From Limnochordales bacterium (lineage in GTDB: Bacteria; Bacillota; Limnochordia; Limnochordales; DUMU01): DNA of 64,000 bases. The notes below the pieces were generated by a model that was not told the origin of the DNA, searched no databases, and saw only the letters and a list, made by a program, of their open reading frames with translations. The DNA is taken from positions 1 through 64,000 of the forward strand of contig JADBKP010000001.1 of the NCBI GenBank assembly GCA_014896315.1, in the 5' to 3' direction. The position numbers and the translations under genes were made by a program. Numbering within the stretch: the stretch's first letter is position 1; every line of letters begins with the position of its first letter. This document shows positions 33,868-42,524 of the stretch, piece after piece.

Positions 33868-36222
33868 TCAATACCCTTTGGTGCGCGACAGCTCCAGCTG
33901 GGCCATGACAAGTTTGTAGTAGATCCCGCGCTGGCGGATCAACTCCTCATGAGTCCCCACTTCGGCTATCCGTCCCTTGTCGAGCACCACCACCCGGCTG
34001 GCGTTGCGCAACGTCGAGAGACGGTGGGCGATCACAAACGTCGTCCGGTTCTTCACCAGCCGGGCCAGGGCCTCCTGAATCTGCATCTCCGTCTCCGAGT
34101 CCACCGAAGCGGTCGCCTCGTCCAGGATCAGGATGCGCGGGTCCCGCAGCACGGCACGAGCGATCGCAATCCTCTGCCTTTCGCCCACCGAGAGCAACTG
34201 ACCCCGTTCACCCACTCGCGTGTCGTACCCATTGGGAAAACGGACAATGAAATCGTGGGCGTTGGCGATCTTGGCCGCCCGGATTATCTCTGCAAGCGAG
34301 GCATCCGGCCGGGCGTAAGCGATGTTCTCCAGGATCGTCCCGGAGAAGAGGAAGGACTCCTGCAGTACCACTCCTATTTGTGAACGGAGACTTGCCTGAG
34401 CGTAATCCTTCAGGTTGATGCCATCGATCAGGATCTCGCCCTCGTCAGGATCGTAAAAACGGCAGAGCAGGTTGATAAGCGTTGATTTGCCCGCGCCGGA
34501 GTGACCGACCAACCCGATCATCTCGCCCGGTTCCACCTTCAGGTTTATGTCGTGGAGCACCGGATTGTGGGCCTCGTAGCCGAAGCTGACGCCCCGAAAT
34601 TCAACTGCCCCCTCGATCCGCCGGTGAATGGGCCGGGCGGCTTCCTTGACCGCCGGCTCCTGATCAAGCACCTGGAAGATCCGTTCCGCTGCCGTCATCG
34701 CCTCGGTGAACCAGCGGGGAACGAAGCTGGCAAACTGCATCGGTCCATAAATCATGCCGGCGTAAGAGGTAAACTGCACCAGCTCCCCCAGCTGAAGTTC
34801 ACGCTGGAGTACAAGGTGGCCGCCAAAGTACAGGATCAAAAACTGGCCGGCGCTGATCAGGAAGCCCAGCGACGGAAAAAGAGTGTTCCACGCTTTCTCA
34901 TTGTTGGCCGTGATATCTCGCATTACCGCTGCCTGTTGCGTGAATCGTTTTGCTTCCCTCTCTTCCTGGCCAAACGCTTTCACGACGCGGATGCCAGACA
35001 GAATGTTGTGCAGCAACGAGTTAGTCTTGTCCCAGGCCCGCCACTGCACATGATACATGTGGTGTATCTGATGCCAGACTCGGCCCGACCAGTAGGCCAC
35101 AAGCGGGGCGGGCAACAGGACGAGAAGCGCCAGCCGCCAGTCGGTGGCAAAGAGGATGATCAGTACCCCGATGAAGACGAGGCTCTCGTTGAAGAGCATG
35201 GCCGCCTGGTTCTGGAGGAACTGCTGGATAGTACCTGTGTCACCGGTGACCCGGTTCATCAGGTCACCGGTCTTCTGCCGGTTAAGGTACCCGAGAGAAA
35301 GCGTCTGGATCTTGGAGTAGACCATCTCCCGCAAATCCCGGGCAAAGCGGGTCCCCATCACGTTCATGGTACGTGACCGGACGATACCGACCGCCTGGAT
35401 GAGCAGATTGGAGAGCCCTATCAGCCCTACGTAGATCAGAAGCTGGCGTATCAACTCACCGGTAGCCCGGCTTCCCCCTGTTGGCGTACCGGGGAACCCC
35501 ACCCGCAGCACATCATCGATGAGAATACGGTACAGTTGCGGTTGTACGAGCCTGAGGCCGGTCAGCACCCAGAAGGTCGCCACACCTACGAAAAAGAGCG
35601 GCAGATGCGGACGGGCCACCTCAACCAGCCGGTGCAGAATCGACCACTTGTCGGCACAAAACGCACAGAGACTGACTCCTTCGGGCAGAACCCTGCCACA
35701 ACGCGGGCAGCTGCGGGGCGGAGCCGGCTCGATGCGGGCCGGGATGGTGCCGGTCGCCAGTTTGTTAAGGTAATGTGCCAGCCGAACAAACTGGGCCAGA
35801 TAACGTGCCGTGTAGGCAGCGAGCCTTACCGGCTCCCCATCCACCGTCGCGATCAGCTCTCCCGCCCCCACCAGTCCCTCGGCCTGAAAGTCCCGCGCCC
35901 GGGTAAGGTCGATCTCCCGGACCAGCTCGCCTTCGCGGATGATCCAAAGATACCGGCGGCTGGCCAGCACCCAGCCCGTGCCAAACCTCTGGTCCGGGCC
36001 CAGGTCAAAAGGAGCACCAAGTAGCAACTCCCCGTCCGCGCCGAGAACCCGCAGCCGCTCCGCCAGAGCTTCCGGCAAAGGGTCGGGGATGGGAAAGCCG
36101 GTGGCAGTTCTGGCTACGGCCCGGTCCGGCTCAGTCACCGGCGCCTGCCGTTTCGGTCTCAGCCCGAGCCGGCGTCCGGTCCGGGCAGGTTTGATCGTCC
36201 TGGTCACGCTCAAGCAGTCCAC
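33868..36222 (-). CDS. ABC exporter half-transporter with N-terminal zinc ribbon
   Basis: A 784-residue fused permease-ATPase. Residues 1-165 are an unusual N-terminal extension, followed by a zinc ribbon with Cys172, 175, 186 and 189 (CPRCG...CAFC). Six transmembrane helices span about 200-500. The ATPase has Walker A GHSGAGKST, Walker B ILILDEATASVD and the H-loop IAHRLSTL. Its signature reads LSVGERQRIAIARA instead of LSGGQ/E, so one of the two ATP sites of a heterodimer may be impaired. It lies 20 bases downstream of the 1013-residue partner gene. Together they are likely a heterodimeric exporter. The start codon (GTG 36222) is not certain. Confidence 0.9.
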   Translation of the reverse strand: MDCLSVTRTIKPARTGRRLGLRPKRQAPVTEPDRAVARTATGFPIPDPLPEALAERLRVLGADGELLLGAPFDLGPDQRFGTGWVLASRRYLWIIREGELVREIDLTRARDFQAEGLVGAGELIATVDGEPVRLAAYTARYLAQFVRLAHYLNKLATGTIPARIEPAPPRSCPRCGRVLPEGVSLCAFCADKWSILHRLVEVARPHLPLFFVGVATFWVLTGLRLVQPQLYRILIDDVLRVGFPGTPTGGSRATGELIRQLLIYVGLIGLSNLLIQAVGIVRSRTMNVMGTRFARDLREMVYSKIQTLSLGYLNRQKTGDLMNRVTGDTGTIQQFLQNQAAMLFNESLVFIGVLIILFATDWRLALLVLLPAPLVAYWSGRVWHQIHHMYHVQWRAWDKTNSLLHNILSGIRVVKAFGQEEREAKRFTQQAAVMRDITANNEKAWNTLFPSLGFLISAGQFLILYFGGHLVLQRELQLGELVQFTSYAGMIYGPMQFASFVPRWFTEAMTAAERIFQVLDQEPAVKEAARPIHRRIEGAVEFRGVSFGYEAHNPVLHDINLKVEPGEMIGLVGHSGAGKSTLINLLCRFYDPDEGEILIDGINLKDYAQASLRSQIGVVLQESFLFSGTILENIAYARPDASLAEIIRAAKIANAHDFIVRFPNGYDTRVGERGQLLSVGERQRIAIARAVLRDPRILILDEATASVDSETEMQIQEALARLVKNRTTFVIAHRLSTLRNASRVVVLDKGRIAEVGTHEELIRQRGIYYKLVMAQLELSRTKGY

Positions 36223-36242
36223 ACTCCCGCTCGGTTTCTCGA

Positions 36243-39200
36243 CTAGAGCATCGACTCGATCTGACGGAAGGCTGCCGGGGTCAGCGACTGGTAATCAGGG
36301 ATGGCAAACCGGTTACCGTCCACATCGATCAGGATCAGCCCCCGCTCGCCGACGGTTAGCACGTTCTCATGACTGTTGCGCATGGTAAACCGGCGCCACC
36401 CGCGGTCTGTCTCGACCTCCCAGTAACTGTATCCGAACTCCTCCTTGACCGATAGCACCCGCTGAATCGTAGGGGTGAAGTACCGCCGATCCAGCTCCTC
36501 GCGCAGAAGCTTTTGCATCTCCGGAGGCAGCGCTCGTAGATCCTCGATGATACCAATCTCTTTGCCCTGCGCGTCACGGACCGATATAAACTCATCCGGC
36601 CTGCTCAAGGGGAAAGAGCGGTAGACCGTAACGCGCGAGTACTCCTCGGTCCGATCTCCGGCGAAACTGTCACTTGTCCCCGCCCCATCGGCACAGGTAC
36701 TTCCCGCCCCTCCCGAACCGCCGTCTATCCCCTCCGCCATCCCAACAGCTCCCGCCGCTGCCGCTCCACCGTGCGCCCCCACTGCCACCACCGTGCAGGT
36801 CTCCTGTGACCTGGCAGGTGCCTGCACCACCAGTCCCAGAAAGCCACCGGCGGTCCGGTAGAACCTTACCCGCTCGGGGTCCAGGTAGCGAACTTCCACA
36901 TACTCTTTCAAGCGATCTTGGTCCTGTTTCTCCCCATCTCGCTCTACCTGCGCCAGCATCTCGTCATCGACCCCCCGGATCTTCAAAGCCTCTCGCTGCA
37001 GCTTGAGCAACTTGAAATACGTGCCTTCTTTGGCCACCAGCTCTTCATGGGTGCCGGTTTCGACATTTCTGCCCTGCTCCAGCACAAAGAGCCGGTCTGC
37101 GTCCCGCAGGGTCGAGAGCCGATGGGCAATGGCGATGGTGGTCCGGTCCTGGACCAGCCAGCGGAGCGCCGCCTGAATCCTCTGCTCGGTCTCGGTATCC
37201 ACCGAAGAGGTGGCCTCGTCCAGGATCAGGATGCGGGGATCCCGCAAGATGGCCCGGGCAATCTCGATCCGCTGCTTTTCCCCGCCGGAAAGATCCCTCC
37301 CCCGGTGTCCGATCACTGTGTCATAGGCATCGGGAAGCTGTACGATAAAATCATGGGCGCTGGCCGCCTTAGCCGCCCGCAGGATCTCCCGGGGTGTTGC
37401 CCCCGGCCGGGCATAGGCGATATTCTCCGCCACCGATCCGGTGAAGAGGAACGGATCCTGCAGTACCATGCCGATCTGTTCCCGCAGATCCTTGAGCGCG
37501 ATCTGCTTCACGTTGACACCGTCGATCAGTACCTCGCCTTCGTCCACGTCGTAGAGCCGGGTTATGACGTTGGTGATGGTCGATTTGCCGGCACCTGAGT
37601 GCCCCACCAACCCCAGCATTTCGCCGGGCTCGATCTTGAGATTGATATCGTGCAGCACCGGTTTGTGCGGCTCATACCCAAACCTCACACCCCGAAGCTC
37701 AATTCGTCCCTGAATCCGTGGCAGGCGAACTGCCTGCGGATGATCGGTGATATCAGGAACGGCATCCAGCACTTCAAAGATGCGCTGGGCGGAGTTCATG
37801 CAGGATGACCACCAGTCGACGATGTGGGCCAGGAAGTCGAGGGGCCCGTAGAGCATGCCAAGATACCCGACGAAGGTCATCATCGTACCAAAGGTCAAGC
37901 GACCCTGAATCACTTCCGCTCCACCCAGTCCCCATACGGCCAGTCCGCCCAGACTCATGACAAAAGAGAGGGCCGGCCAGAGGGTGGCACCCAGGTTACC
38001 GGTTTCGAGCGCCACCTGGAAAAGCTCATTGTTGCGTACGCCGAAGCGACAGATCTCCGACTCCTCTCGTCCAAATGCCTTCACTACACGTACACCGGTA
38101 AGAGCATCGTTCATCAGGGCGTTGAGAGCGCTGTGTTTGTGGTAGTTGCGGGAGAAGAGTCGCCAGAGGCGTGGCATAACCACCCGGGCGATCCAGACGA
38201 TCACCGGGGCCGGCAGCAACACCAGCAGTGTCAGCCGCCAGTCCATGCTGAACATGATGATCAGCACACCGACCAACATGAGCACGTTGACAATAAAGTA
38301 CGGGACGCCATCATGGAAGAAATACTGCAGGTGCATGGCGTCATGGTTTACCCGCGTCATGAGGCTTCCGGTCTGCCGTGAACTGAAAAACCGCATTGAC
38401 AGACGCTGCATCGCCGCGAAGACCTCTGTCTTGAGGTCGTAGATGACCTGTGCGGTCATCACCGAGTTGAGGCGGCCATAAGCAATGCTGATCACCAGTG
38501 CCAGGAGCTGGGTGAGAAAGATCAGCAGCACCACCGGGCCAAGCTGGCCAAAGTAGCGGCCGCCCGGAGTGAGTACTTCGTCGTAGAGAATCCGTCCGCT
38601 CAGAACAGGGCTAACCACCCGCAAGGCGGAGCTGGCGAGCATACAGAGGAGGATGAGAGCTATCTGCCGCTTGTAGCGGGGAACGAAGGAAAGCACCCGC
38701 AGGAAAAGGCGTCCCCGATCAAGACAGCGGGGACAGACGGGCCGGTTGGGCTCCGGATACATCAACCCGCAGCGGGGGCAGTACTGCGGCATCTGATCTT
38801 CCCGGATGTCGCTCTCCTGGATCTCCTCACCCCGCCGGACCTTGTCGACAAGCCGGCAGAAGAGCCCGAACTTGCGGGCCTGGGAGTTGGAGAAGCGGCA
38901 CAAGATTATGTCCTCGGTGTTTGCCTCCTTGCGCACCGTCGCCACCAGAAGGCCGTTGCCGGTCAAACTCTCGACCCGGATGCCCTCAAGATCGGCCAGG
39001 GCAACGCTCCGCAGTGGCTCACCCAGGGGAGCAGGTGACGGTGCGGGCCTGTGAACTCCCGAGCCCACGACGGCCGGCCTGCCGCCGGTGGCTTTCGCCG
39101 CTGGCGGAGCGTGTAGCTCCGGGATAACCCATAGCATATCCCGGGTACAAACAACCCAGCTCGGGCTGAAGCTTCCGTTTTCGTCCAGATCAGCTCCGGC

Positions 39201-39284
39201 AATCAATACAACTGCGGCCGAAGTCAAGCCACGACGGCGCAGCCAGGCATCCAACTGCAGCGGGGCGGGTTCGAGTCGATCCAC
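36243..39284 (-). CDS. ABC exporter half-transporter with zinc ribbon and C-terminal DUF1854
   Basis: A 1013-residue protein. An N-terminal extension (1-160) is followed by a zinc ribbon with Cys169, 172, 184 and 187. A six-helix permease comes next, then an ATPase with Walker A GHSGAGKST, an intact signature LSGGEKQRIEIARA and Walker B ILILDEATSSVD. After a Gly/Ala-rich linker (about 830-870), the last 130 residues match DUF1854, which elsewhere is a separate gene beside cyanophycin-associated ABC transporters: FPLSRPDEFISVRDAQGKEI, DLRALPPEMQKLLREEL. GTG 39284 follows GGGAGG at 7 bases. First gene of the two-gene exporter operon. Substrate unknown; no cyanophycin genes are in the window. 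Confidence 0.9.
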   Translation of the reverse strand: MDRLEPAPLQLDAWLRRRGLTSAAVVLIAGADLDENGSFSPSWVVCTRDMLWVIPELHAPPAAKATGGRPAVVGSGVHRPAPSPAPLGEPLRSVALADLEGIRVESLTGNGLLVATVRKEANTEDIILCRFSNSQARKFGLFCRLVDKVRRGEEIQESDIREDQMPQYCPRCGLMYPEPNRPVCPRCLDRGRLFLRVLSFVPRYKRQIALILLCMLASSALRVVSPVLSGRILYDEVLTPGGRYFGQLGPVVLLIFLTQLLALVISIAYGRLNSVMTAQVIYDLKTEVFAAMQRLSMRFFSSRQTGSLMTRVNHDAMHLQYFFHDGVPYFIVNVLMLVGVLIIMFSMDWRLTLLVLLPAPVIVWIARVVMPRLWRLFSRNYHKHSALNALMNDALTGVRVVKAFGREESEICRFGVRNNELFQVALETGNLGATLWPALSFVMSLGGLAVWGLGGAEVIQGRLTFGTMMTFVGYLGMLYGPLDFLAHIVDWWSSCMNSAQRIFEVLDAVPDITDHPQAVRLPRIQGRIELRGVRFGYEPHKPVLHDINLKIEPGEMLGLVGHSGAGKSTITNVITRLYDVDEGEVLIDGVNVKQIALKDLREQIGMVLQDPFLFTGSVAENIAYARPGATPREILRAAKAASAHDFIVQLPDAYDTVIGHRGRDLSGGEKQRIEIARAILRDPRILILDEATSSVDTETEQRIQAALRWLVQDRTTIAIAHRLSTLRDADRLFVLEQGRNVETGTHEELVAKEGTYFKLLKLQREALKIRGVDDEMLAQVERDGEKQDQDRLKEYVEVRYLDPERVRFYRTAGGFLGLVVQAPARSQETCTVVAVGAHGGAAAAGAVGMAEGIDGGSGGAGSTCADGAGTSDSFAGDRTEEYSRVTVYRSFPLSRPDEFISVRDAQGKEIGIIEDLRALPPEMQKLLREELDRRYFTPTIQRVLSVKEEFGYSYWEVETDRGWRRFTMRNSHENVLTVGERGLILIDVDGNRFAIPDYQSLTPAAFRQIESML

Positions 39285-39492
39285 ATGCTCGCCTCCCGAC
39301 ACGCCATTCGCCAGCAATCACCCGTATCCTGCCGGCTTATTCTGTTTGAAAAAGATTTGGCTGAACAACAAGAAGCTTCCTCCGGAATTCCTGTTCCAGA
39401 AGAAGCCTCTTGCCATCCGGGCTATCGAGCAGGCCAGGGAAAGTAACCCGCCCCAGCAGCCATCCTAAACCGTACGGCGCAGTCCCGCCGCG

Positions 39493-40923
39493 CTACGGGC
39501 CGCCCACCCCAGGATGGCGAGCAGTGTTGGCCAGGCTCACGTAGAAGGGAACGATGGTGATGAGGATCCCTTCGCTATAGGTGAGCTCCCGTATGATCTG
39601 GGATGCGACTCCGTTGTGGAGATACGCATCAAAAGGCTCGTCGGTCACTATGACGGGCACCAGAAGATTGAGCAACACTCCGGGCTCCTGGCGCTGCAGG
39701 TTCTCGAGGAAGTCGCGCAGCGGTTCGATGATCTCCCGGTAAGGCGATTCAATGACGGTGAGCGGGACGCCTCCGTGGCGCTGTGCGTCCCATTCGCGCC
39801 GGATCTTCTCTGCCTGTTCTGGGTCGGAGGCAACATGTACCGCCACGATATCGTCGGAAATCCGCCGGGCCACCCTGAACGAGTGATCGATGACAGGACT
39901 CAACCCGCCGATGGTGAGCACCACTTTGGTGCGCCGCGCCTCGTCAATCGCCATCGGTACCCTGGCCAGCCCCCAGCGCAAACTTGGTCACTACCGTGAC
40001 GGCGAAGGCAAGCCCGCTCAACACCGCACCTGCCCCGTTGAGGACCAGCGCCGTTACCGGTAGCCGCCCGGTCTTTTTCCGCTGCCTCAGCCAGTGCACG
40101 ACCATGACCGAGCGCAAACGCTAGAAAGACACCAACGGCATAGAGGGGAATGAGGTGATGGACGTTGCCCCGAAACACCACGAGCAGTACCGTGCCCGCC
40201 CCTGCGAGGATATAGATCCCCAGGTTGTGAACCAGAGTGTCGCCGCGGTTGGCAAAACGTCTCGGCATGTAGCCGTCGCGGGCCATGAACGCCGCAAGCC
40301 TTGGGAAGTCCTGGTAGGCGGTATTGGCCGCCAGGAGCAGAATGGCCATGGTTGTGGCCTACAGCAGGTAGTAGAGCGGGCCCTGGCCGAACACCGCGCG
40401 CCCGAGCTGGCTTAGCAGCGTCTCATTCTGACGCGGCATGAGGCCGAAGCCGTAAGATAACAGCGTCACGCCGCCGAAGAGCGTGTACATGATGGTTCCG
40501 CTCGAGGTTCATGGTGCGGATGGCGTGGGTGTCCTCAGGTGGAGCAAAGGCCTGGACGCCGTTGGAAATAGCTTCGATCCCGGTGAGGGCGGTCGAACCC
40601 GACGCAAAGGCCCGCAGCAGCAGAAGCAGGCTAACACCCGGGAGAACCGGTGATGCCGGTCCGAGTCCAAAAGCGGCGGCCGGGCTAACGGGCGGCACCC
40701 AGGCACCGTGAAGCGCCCGCCAGGCTCCTACGCCGATGAGAAGAAGCCTCGTCCCGATGAACGAGTAAGTCGGTACGGCGAAGTGCGCCCCGACTCCCGG
40801 ACGCCGCGCAGATTCGTGGCGCTCTTGATCGGTGCGCTTCGGAGGGCCGAAAACCACAAAGCGGAGTGTACGCAACAGACGGTGCCGGGGGCTGCTAGGA
40901 AGATGATTGGAGAAGGTGGTCAT
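39493..40923 (-). pseudogene. kimA: Destroyed KimA-like potassium transporter gene
   Basis: Pieces of an APC-superfamily KimA/YdaO-type transporter appear in several frames. They include a start-like RFVVFGPPKRT, NLRGVRESG then FAVPTYSFIGTRLLLIGVG, GSTALTGIEAISNGVQAFAP, IMYTLFGGVTLLSYGFGLMP, TAYQDFPRLAAFMARDGYMP and a cytoplasmic C-terminus VVLTIGGLSPVIDHSFRVAR. The first five or so helices are deleted, at least three frameshifts are needed, and an in-frame TAG lies at 40359-40361. The c-di-AMP riboswitch sits directly upstream, as for kimA genes elsewhere. The gene cannot make a working transporter. Confidence 0.88.
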
Positions 40924-40929
40924 AGCTGA

Positions 40930-40966
40930 CCAAAGAGGCGGCCGCCTTCACAGGCGGCGTCTTTGG
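40930..40966 (-). promoter_or_regulatory. Expression-platform hairpin of the riboswitch
   Basis: Outer arms CCAAAGA / TCTTTGG enclose inner arms GCCGCC / GGCGGC. It lies between the aptamer and the ATG at 40923. No U-tract follows, so it would act by hiding the start region, or the terminator has decayed with the gene. Confidence 0.45.
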
Positions 40967-40985
40967 GCGTAAACCTCCCTCGCTC

Positions 40986-41158
40986 AGGCTTACGGGGTTA
41001 GCTGCCGGTTCGGGCGGCGAGAGTCGCCCTACCACCGCGGAACGGACATTCGGGCCGAAGCCTGAATGCCATCCGGGCGGATTCACCGCTGAAACCGGGG
41101 TCTTCCCCGGCCATTAGGGTCCCCCGCCCCGGCCGTGACTGACGGCCGGGCTCAGCCT
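40986..41158 (-). ncRNA. Cyclic di-AMP riboswitch (ydaO/yuaA type)
   Basis: On the minus strand the leader carries the conserved ydaO-class elements in order: GGGGGACCCTAATGG, GGTGAATCC, GGTAGGGCGACTCTCGCCG, CCGAACCGGCAGCTAACC, then CGTAAGC. The ends AGGCT (41158-41154) and AGCCT (40990-40986) can pair to close the aptamer. This RNA senses c-di-AMP and usually shuts off potassium uptake and wall-lytic genes when the signal is high. It has a good promoter upstream and faces a KimA-like pseudogene. Confidence 0.88.
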
Positions 41159-41178
41159 AGTTTGCGTAACTATCGTCC

Positions 41179-41207
41179 ATCATACGCCGGGGCGACCACG
41201 CACGCAA
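41179..41207 (-). promoter_or_regulatory. Sigma-A promoter of the riboswitch transcript
   Basis: Minus strand: TTGCGT at 41207-41202, a 17-base spacer, then TATGAT at 41184-41179. It lies between the coaBC stop and the aptamer; transcription would begin near 41172. Confidence 0.65.
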
Positions 41208-41216
41208 GGACGGCTT

Positions 41217-42524
41217 TTACTCAATGCGCTGGGCGATCAGGTCCAGCAGTCGGGCCGCTATTTCCCGCTTGGTCATGAGCGGCCATGCCTCTGTTGTGCC
41301 GTCCGGAAAGAGCAGCGTCACGATATTCGTGTCGACGCCGAAACCCGCCCCCGGCGTTGAGACATCGTTGGCTACCAGCAGGTCAGTACCCGGCTTGCGA
41401 GCCAGTTTGGCTGTCGCACGGGATACGGCCTCTCCGGATTCGGCAGCAAATCCCACCAGGAAGGGCCTGTTGCTACCTCTCTCGAGCTTCGCCCGGCCAA
41501 GCGTGGCCAGGATATCCGGGTTGGGTACGAGGGTAAGAGTCAATTCCTCGTCCGGATCGCCCCGACGCTTGATCTTCTCCTCCGAGTACTGCTTGGGCCG
41601 GAAGTCGGCCACGGCGGCGGCCATAACGACCACATCCTGTTCCAGGCCACAAGCCATCACTGCCTGCAGCATCTCCTCTGCTGTTTCCGCCCGCACGATT
41701 TCCACCTGGTTCTGGCCCTGGCCGCCTGCAGGCGTCACCTCATTCAGGAAGGATTCGTAGACCTTTGGGTCGACAGTGCCCAGCACCACGGTTACGGCGG
41801 CTCCTCTGCGCACTGCTTCCGCAGCAATGGCGAGCCCCATCTTCCCTGAGGAACGGTTACCGATATACCGCACCGGGTCGAGCGGCTCCCGCGTACCGCC
41901 CGCCGTGACAAGTACTCTGCGGCCCTGCCAGGCTGAGCCGGAAATCTCACCCTCTGCCGCCCGCTGTCGCAAGGCAGCCTCCAGCGCGGCCAGGATCTTG
42001 TCGGTTTCGCTGAAGCGGCCCCGGCCGACGTGGCCCGTGGCCAGCCGGCCCTCTTCTGGTCCGACAAAGATGCAACCACGGGCTTTCAGCCGGGCAATGT
42101 TCTCCTGGGTCGCCGGATGGGAGTACATATTGGAGTTCATCGCCGGCGCGATAATCACGGGGGCCCGAACCACCAGGTACGTAGTGGAGATGGGATCGTC
42201 AGCCAACCCGTGTGCCAGCTTGGCAATGAGGTCGGCGCTGGCCGGAGCAATGACCAGGGCATCGGCTTCCAGTCCGAGCTGCACGTGGGTGACTACATCC
42301 CCTGCTCCTTCCGGATGGAAGAGGTCCGTAACCACAGGAGCACGGGAGAGCTCTCGCAAAGTTACCGGGCTGATGAACTGCTGGGCGGCGGACGTCATGA
42401 GCACCCTGACCCTCGCACCCCGTTCCACCAGCCGCCGCACCAGGTCGACCGCTTTGTATGCCGCAATGCTACCGGTTATCCCCACCAGGATCAGCTTGTC
42501 CCGCCAGAGGGCGGATTCCGTCAT
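41217..42524 (-). CDS. coaBC: Bifunctional phosphopantothenoylcysteine decarboxylase / phosphopantothenate-cysteine ligase
   Basis: A 435-residue coenzyme A synthesis enzyme. The N-terminal CoaC flavoprotein half (about 1-190) has LVGITGSIAAYKAVDLVRRL, the active-site His-containing THVQLG segment and PAMNSNMYSHPATQEN. The CoaB half (about 200-435) starts RVLVTAGGTREPLDPVRYIG and has NRSSGKMGLAIA and VVMAAAVADFRPK. AAGGAG precedes the ATG. It follows the lipoprotein gene by 39 bases and may be co-transcribed with it. Confidence 0.96.
   Translation of the reverse strand: MTESALWRDKLILVGITGSIAAYKAVDLVRRLVERGARVRVLMTSAAQQFISPVTLRELSRAPVVTDLFHPEGAGDVVTHVQLGLEADALVIAPASADLIAKLAHGLADDPISTTYLVVRAPVIIAPAMNSNMYSHPATQENIARLKARGCIFVGPEEGRLATGHVGRGRFSETDKILAALEAALRQRAAEGEISGSAWQGRRVLVTAGGTREPLDPVRYIGNRSSGKMGLAIAAEAVRRGAAVTVVLGTVDPKVYESFLNEVTPAGGQGQNQVEIVRAETAEEMLQAVMACGLEQDVVVMAAAVADFRPKQYSEEKIKRRGDPDEELTLTLVPNPDILATLGRAKLERGSNRPFLVGFAAESGEAVSRATAKLARKPGTDLLVANDVSTPGAGFGVDTNIVTLLFPDGTTEAWPLMTKREIAARLLDLIAQRIE

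Follow-up and report, generated by a model that had tools for sequence, protein, structure and literature searches.

The 64,000-nucleotide stretch of DNA analyzed here (the window) carries a genuine c-di-AMP riboswitch of a known class, which is very probably the relic of a recently dead and probably horizontally acquired kimA gene. The Rfam scan matched RF00379 (c-di-AMP, ydaO/yuaA) at 41167–40972 on the minus strand with 69.3 bits (E = 5e-14 for the window), well above the gathering cut-off of 38 bits. The match spans the full model (1–134 of 134), corresponds to an aptamer of 196 nt and is the sole gathering-level RNA match in the whole window. The riboswitch call of the preliminary description was thereby confirmed, and folding of 41172–40900 recovered both the closing stem and the hairpin that it had named. 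A whole-genome search of the host assembly (2.59 Mb, 20 contigs, 96.8% complete) returned no further RF00379 copies. The features of the locus are collected in Table 1.

Table 1. Coordinates of the riboswitch, the kimA remnant and the flanking genes in the window.
Feature	Position	Strand	Basis
dfp/coaBC, intact, upstream neighbor	41217–42524	−	Pfam DFP 4.5e-63; syntenic in G001
Candidate sigma-A promoter: TTGCGT (41207–41202), 17-nt spacer, TATGAT (41184–41179)	41179–41207	−	8/12 consensus
c-di-AMP (ydaO/yuaA) riboswitch aptamer, RF00379	40972–41167	−	69.3 bits, full model; helices covary across 22 aptamers
Post-aptamer hairpin, U-poor tail (CUCUUUGG)	40930–40966	−	fold; function inferred
kimA remnant, start and N-terminal piece (ATG 40923 ... 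PKRTDQERHE)	40813–40923	−	matches L124/L083/L084 KimA N-termini
kimA remnant, resumes at NLRGVRESG past the ~135-codon deletion; frame change near 40791	40498–40814	−	homologue comparison
kimA remnant, transmembrane core, new frame, TAG 40361–40359	40110–40496	−	PDB 6S3K, E 5e-34
kimA remnant, short third-frame piece (MVVHWLRQ...VTKFALG)	39971–40105	−	homologue comparison
kimA remnant, C-terminal cytoplasmic domain past the ~110-nt deletion	39493–39954	−	PDB 6S3K, E 1.6e-16
ABC exporter gene, downstream neighbor, same strand	36243–39317	−	homologous to G001 from 39298 onward

An alignment of 22 aptamers showed standard pairing in 98.4% of cells (25 pairs in seven helices) and two-sided changes at 10 pairs, a level reached in none of 500 shuffles. 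The window aptamer is altered at 7 of 48 near-invariant positions, as compared with 0–3 in each of the others. Decay of the aptamer was rejected as the reason, since the pairing count puts most of these changes in restored pairs. In P1, a C-G pair became G-C, which is also found in one other aptamer; in P2, a U-A pair became C-G, a change unique among the 22. Read by eye, a G to C change in helix 5 gives the pairing CGG:CCG, provided that the alignment is shifted by one base. A candidate loop–tail pseudoknot, likewise read by eye, would join the loop CUCUCGC to the tail GCGAGGG through seven pairs, one of them G-U. Judged from the alignment, the compensated changes indicate that structural constraint shaped the evolution of this RNA; they say nothing on constraint today. 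The aptamer may bind c-di-AMP. It shares with its class the full-length covariance match, the core helices, the conserved blocks and the potassium transporter gene behind it, but differs in its mostly compensatory changes at near-invariant positions, its dead controlled gene and its poor terminator tail.

Alignment to intact homologues with blastx and blastn located the lesions of that gene. Two segments of the remnant, 40508–40113 and 39981–39493, matched the KimA structure (PDB 6S3K) with E values of 5e-34 and 1.6e-16, respectively. About 135 N-terminal codons are deleted near 40814, the frame changes near 40791, 40497 and 40107, an in-frame TAG stands at 40361–40359, and a further 110 nt or so are missing near 39970–39955. 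The locus contains no complete kimA open reading frame. As in the KimA (YdaO) importer, the transmembrane core, the C-terminal cytoplasmic domain and the family-invariant residues are kept; unlike it, the remnant has no intact frame and has lost most of the N-terminal helices. The wrecked KimA-like gene seen in the preliminary description was thus borne out, and we read this copy as a pseudogene, not as a functional KimA member.

The remnant keeps all 28 invariant columns of 32 intact KimAs. Measured against a smaller set of 13 KimAs, 61 of 67 invariant columns are retained; five of the six apparent losses were discounted as misalignment at the deletion junction, and the 32-KimA set loses none of its 28. 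The codon-position ratio (p1+p2)/2p3 was 0.46 between the remnant and L124, as compared with 0.47 between the live genes L125 and L124. Some neutral time has elapsed, because the remnant departs from the clade at 22 of 184 clade-invariant residues, more than any of the intact clade members tested (0–13 of 162–175). From one loss in about 62 columns, and assuming about 2.25 amino-acid-changing sites per codon, we estimate that neutral divergence since the death of the gene would be roughly 1%, with an upper bound near 3–5%. A recent death is well supported by the kept invariant residues and the codon-position pattern typical of live genes. Since the remnant shows almost no substitutional decay, there was little time for the aptamer to degenerate either. 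At about six indels per 1.4 kb, a 196-nt aptamer would stay free of indels nearly half the time, with few conserved bases altered. Recent death and these odds together mean that survival of the riboswitch is expected without selection. Two explanations had been offered for an RNA outliving its gene, and it is the first of these, recent loss, that agrees with the retained columns and the codon-position ratio.

The nearest intact kimA among the named contigs belongs to an uncultured Firmicutes MAG (L124, 64% identity), followed by those of Thermaerobacter-like genomes (57%). Among 398 genomes of the phylum, the best KimA matches were found in G126 and G164, which we take to be Thermaerobacter; the C-terminal piece of the remnant is 56% identical to their KimA. 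The order riboswitch–kimA recurs in the intact relatives L083, L084 and L124, and a tree placed the remnant and the relatives' kimAs in one clade (support 1.0). In L124 (73–4200), kimA is present as two tandem copies whose proteins are about 96% identical, and a riboswitch and a clear terminator precede the second copy. We rejected kimA as a class-wide gene: it was detected in 1 of 73 class genomes, the window's own, apart from one marginal and weak match to a generic permease. Because the class otherwise lacks kimA, the riboswitch–kimA unit was probably acquired horizontally, a reading drawn from the patchy distribution and the tree, not from transfer marks. The GC content of the remnant is close to that of its surroundings, a DNA search against plasmids returned no match to the locus, and aptamer identity, used as a probe of co-transfer with kimA, was 66% to G126 and G164 and equally 66% to G003a. 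The gap between the dfp and ABC genes of the sister species G001 is filled by a CDF cation-efflux-like transporter gene (L119:2831–3808), with neither riboswitch nor kimA. Insertion of the unit in the window's lineage is the simplest reading, the alternative being loss elsewhere.

A search of the genome for another kimA or ktr gene, proposed in the preliminary description, found no second kimA; it did find a TrkH/KtrB, as well as KdpA with frames resembling kdpB, kdpC, kdpD and kdpE. Three TrkA_C domains are also present, together with two DAC domains, a DisA-like one next to a radA-like gene and a CdaA-like one ahead of glmM. The loss of kimA was tolerable because Kdp, TrkH/KtrB and two c-di-AMP synthases were kept. 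KimA was therefore dispensable in the host, and c-di-AMP is presumably still made. The kdp operon of the window's genome is complete, with KdpD- and KdpE-like genes, and lies near cdaA–glmM–glmS (G000:C16:190112–197903, L206); no KdpA match was found in the congener G001. The kdp-adjacent DAC domain was considered as an oddity and rejected as such, as glmM and glmS follow it directly, which is the usual setting of cdaA.

In Bacillus, transporter expression falls when c-di-AMP binds and termination is favored; the kdpFABC riboswitch of Bacillus thuringiensis was experimentally shown to be an OFF switch acting through transcription termination, and kimA is also described as controlled by this class (PMC6488665). 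Unlike the riboswitch described here, that of B. thuringiensis controls an intact operon and has a canonical hairpin with a U-tract. We propose that the riboswitch–kimA unit, acquired horizontally, landed between dfp and the ABC exporter pair. Binding of c-di-AMP to the aptamer would have lowered KimA expression at high c-di-AMP, and hence at high potassium, as an OFF switch. The gene, redundant beside Kdp and Trk/Ktr, recently lost its function through deletions, frame changes and a premature stop, leaving a riboswitch that has not yet decayed for want of time. Transcription of this relic and its binding of c-di-AMP may both persist, but it probably has no target and no present function.

Well-paired helices would equally result from continued selection. 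Selection is nevertheless unlikely to be keeping the orphaned aptamer, whether as an independent RNA that binds c-di-AMP or as a switch newly put to use for the ABC exporters. Re-use for the exporters, with a transcript reading through the remnant to control the downstream pair (39317–33868), appears quite improbable. The pair lies on the same strand behind a gap of about 200 nt, in which no T-rich terminator was detected on that strand. However, the ABC gene carries its own ribosome-binding site, the same gene stands without a riboswitch in G001, the post-aptamer hairpin and the stops of the remnant would oppose read-through, and such exporters have no known link to c-di-AMP. The GTG start of the ABC gene is near 39285, and homology to G001 sets in just upstream, at 39298. 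The two tandem exporters (33868–39317) have zinc-ribbon-like N-terminal parts (YCPRCG...CPRC), and of the NCBIfam models the cyanophycin-associated ABC transporter fits them best, with a score below its cut-off.

The second explanation offered earlier was a stand-alone transcript, that is, a short c-di-AMP-binding RNA (sponge or trans-acting) ending at the hairpin near 40930. Such an RNA would fit the intact aptamer with its paired core helices, the c-di-AMP synthases of the genome, and the flanks of the aptamer, one bearing a promoter-like site and the other a strong hairpin. The promoter had been described as good. The two boxes are present at the 17-nt spacing, but the −35 box matches the consensus at 3 of 6 positions and both boxes together at 8 of 12, a score that 14% of shuffled versions of the stretch equal or exceed; a standard scan (≥9/12) found no promoter upstream of the aptamer. 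The match is modest, and a promoter here is plausible, not good. The fold of 41172–40900, which includes the hairpin at 40966–40930, scored z = −3.55 against shuffles, and this hairpin occupies the terminator position of the nearest intact relative, L124, where a hairpin is followed by TTTT. We rejected it as a repeat element, no second copy being present in the window. Against a stand-alone RNA, it has no proper U-tract, and in the nearest relatives these elements act in cis. Intactness of the aptamer is equally expected without selection, the death of the gene being recent. No positive evidence for a stand-alone transcript emerged, the survival of the RNA is already explained by recency, and we regard this explanation as highly improbable. 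There is no clear Shine–Dalgarno sequence ahead of ATG 40923; because of this and the poor U-tract, the output side of the relic may be damaged too. A GGAGG lies in the aptamer tail directly ahead of the kimA ATG in G126 and G164, an arrangement that suggests translational control of those genes.

An artifact of sequencing or assembly, with kimA intact in the organism, is a hardly credible source of the broken frame: single-base frame errors are possible in a 20-contig assembly, but here a single gene between intact dfp and ABC genes combines two large deletions with several frame changes and a TAG, and a sequencing slip is a very unlikely cause.

As a relic of a recently dead kimA, the locus cleanly captures a riboswitch in the course of losing its gene. 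No other c-di-AMP riboswitch was detected in the genome, and this one controls nothing visibly intact, though the genes that make the messenger remain. Riboswitches beside pseudogenes have been reported and were judged fortuitous by the authors (PMC9943018); those cases are antisense-oriented, whereas the riboswitch in the window stands in normal cis order. Our literature search found nothing on an orphaned cis riboswitch of the c-di-AMP class. The case urges caution, as survival of a regulatory RNA is no proof of function unless the death of the gene is dated first. We consider the locus a real but fairly ordinary evolutionary leftover, in which the survival of the riboswitch needs no special explanation; it would matter more if the RNA evolved slower than the dead gene across strains.

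A more promising lead than the kimA relic appears to be the association of the c-di-AMP riboswitch with a gene of the octopine/nopaline-dehydrogenase family (PF02317), which it precedes repeatedly across the order (L032:6405–9923 and L033:2390–6208; also G004, G005, G006, G007, G008, G010 and G012). In G001 and G002, the gene after the dehydrogenase encodes a B12-binding protein whose body is mutase-like. The window's genome contains no dehydrogenase homologue and has evidently lost the gene. No paper linking c-di-AMP riboswitches to this dehydrogenase was found in the literature search; speculatively, the dehydrogenase might make an osmolyte, and these loci could possibly represent a c-di-AMP-controlled osmolyte pathway. 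The dehydrogenase is split between two frames in G010 (C8:245951–247022) and carries an internal stop in G007 (C12:19264–20358) and G011 (C75:659–1759). These damaged genes are possibly further decaying riboswitch targets, or else sequencing errors; those of G010 and G007 sit behind a c-di-AMP riboswitch.
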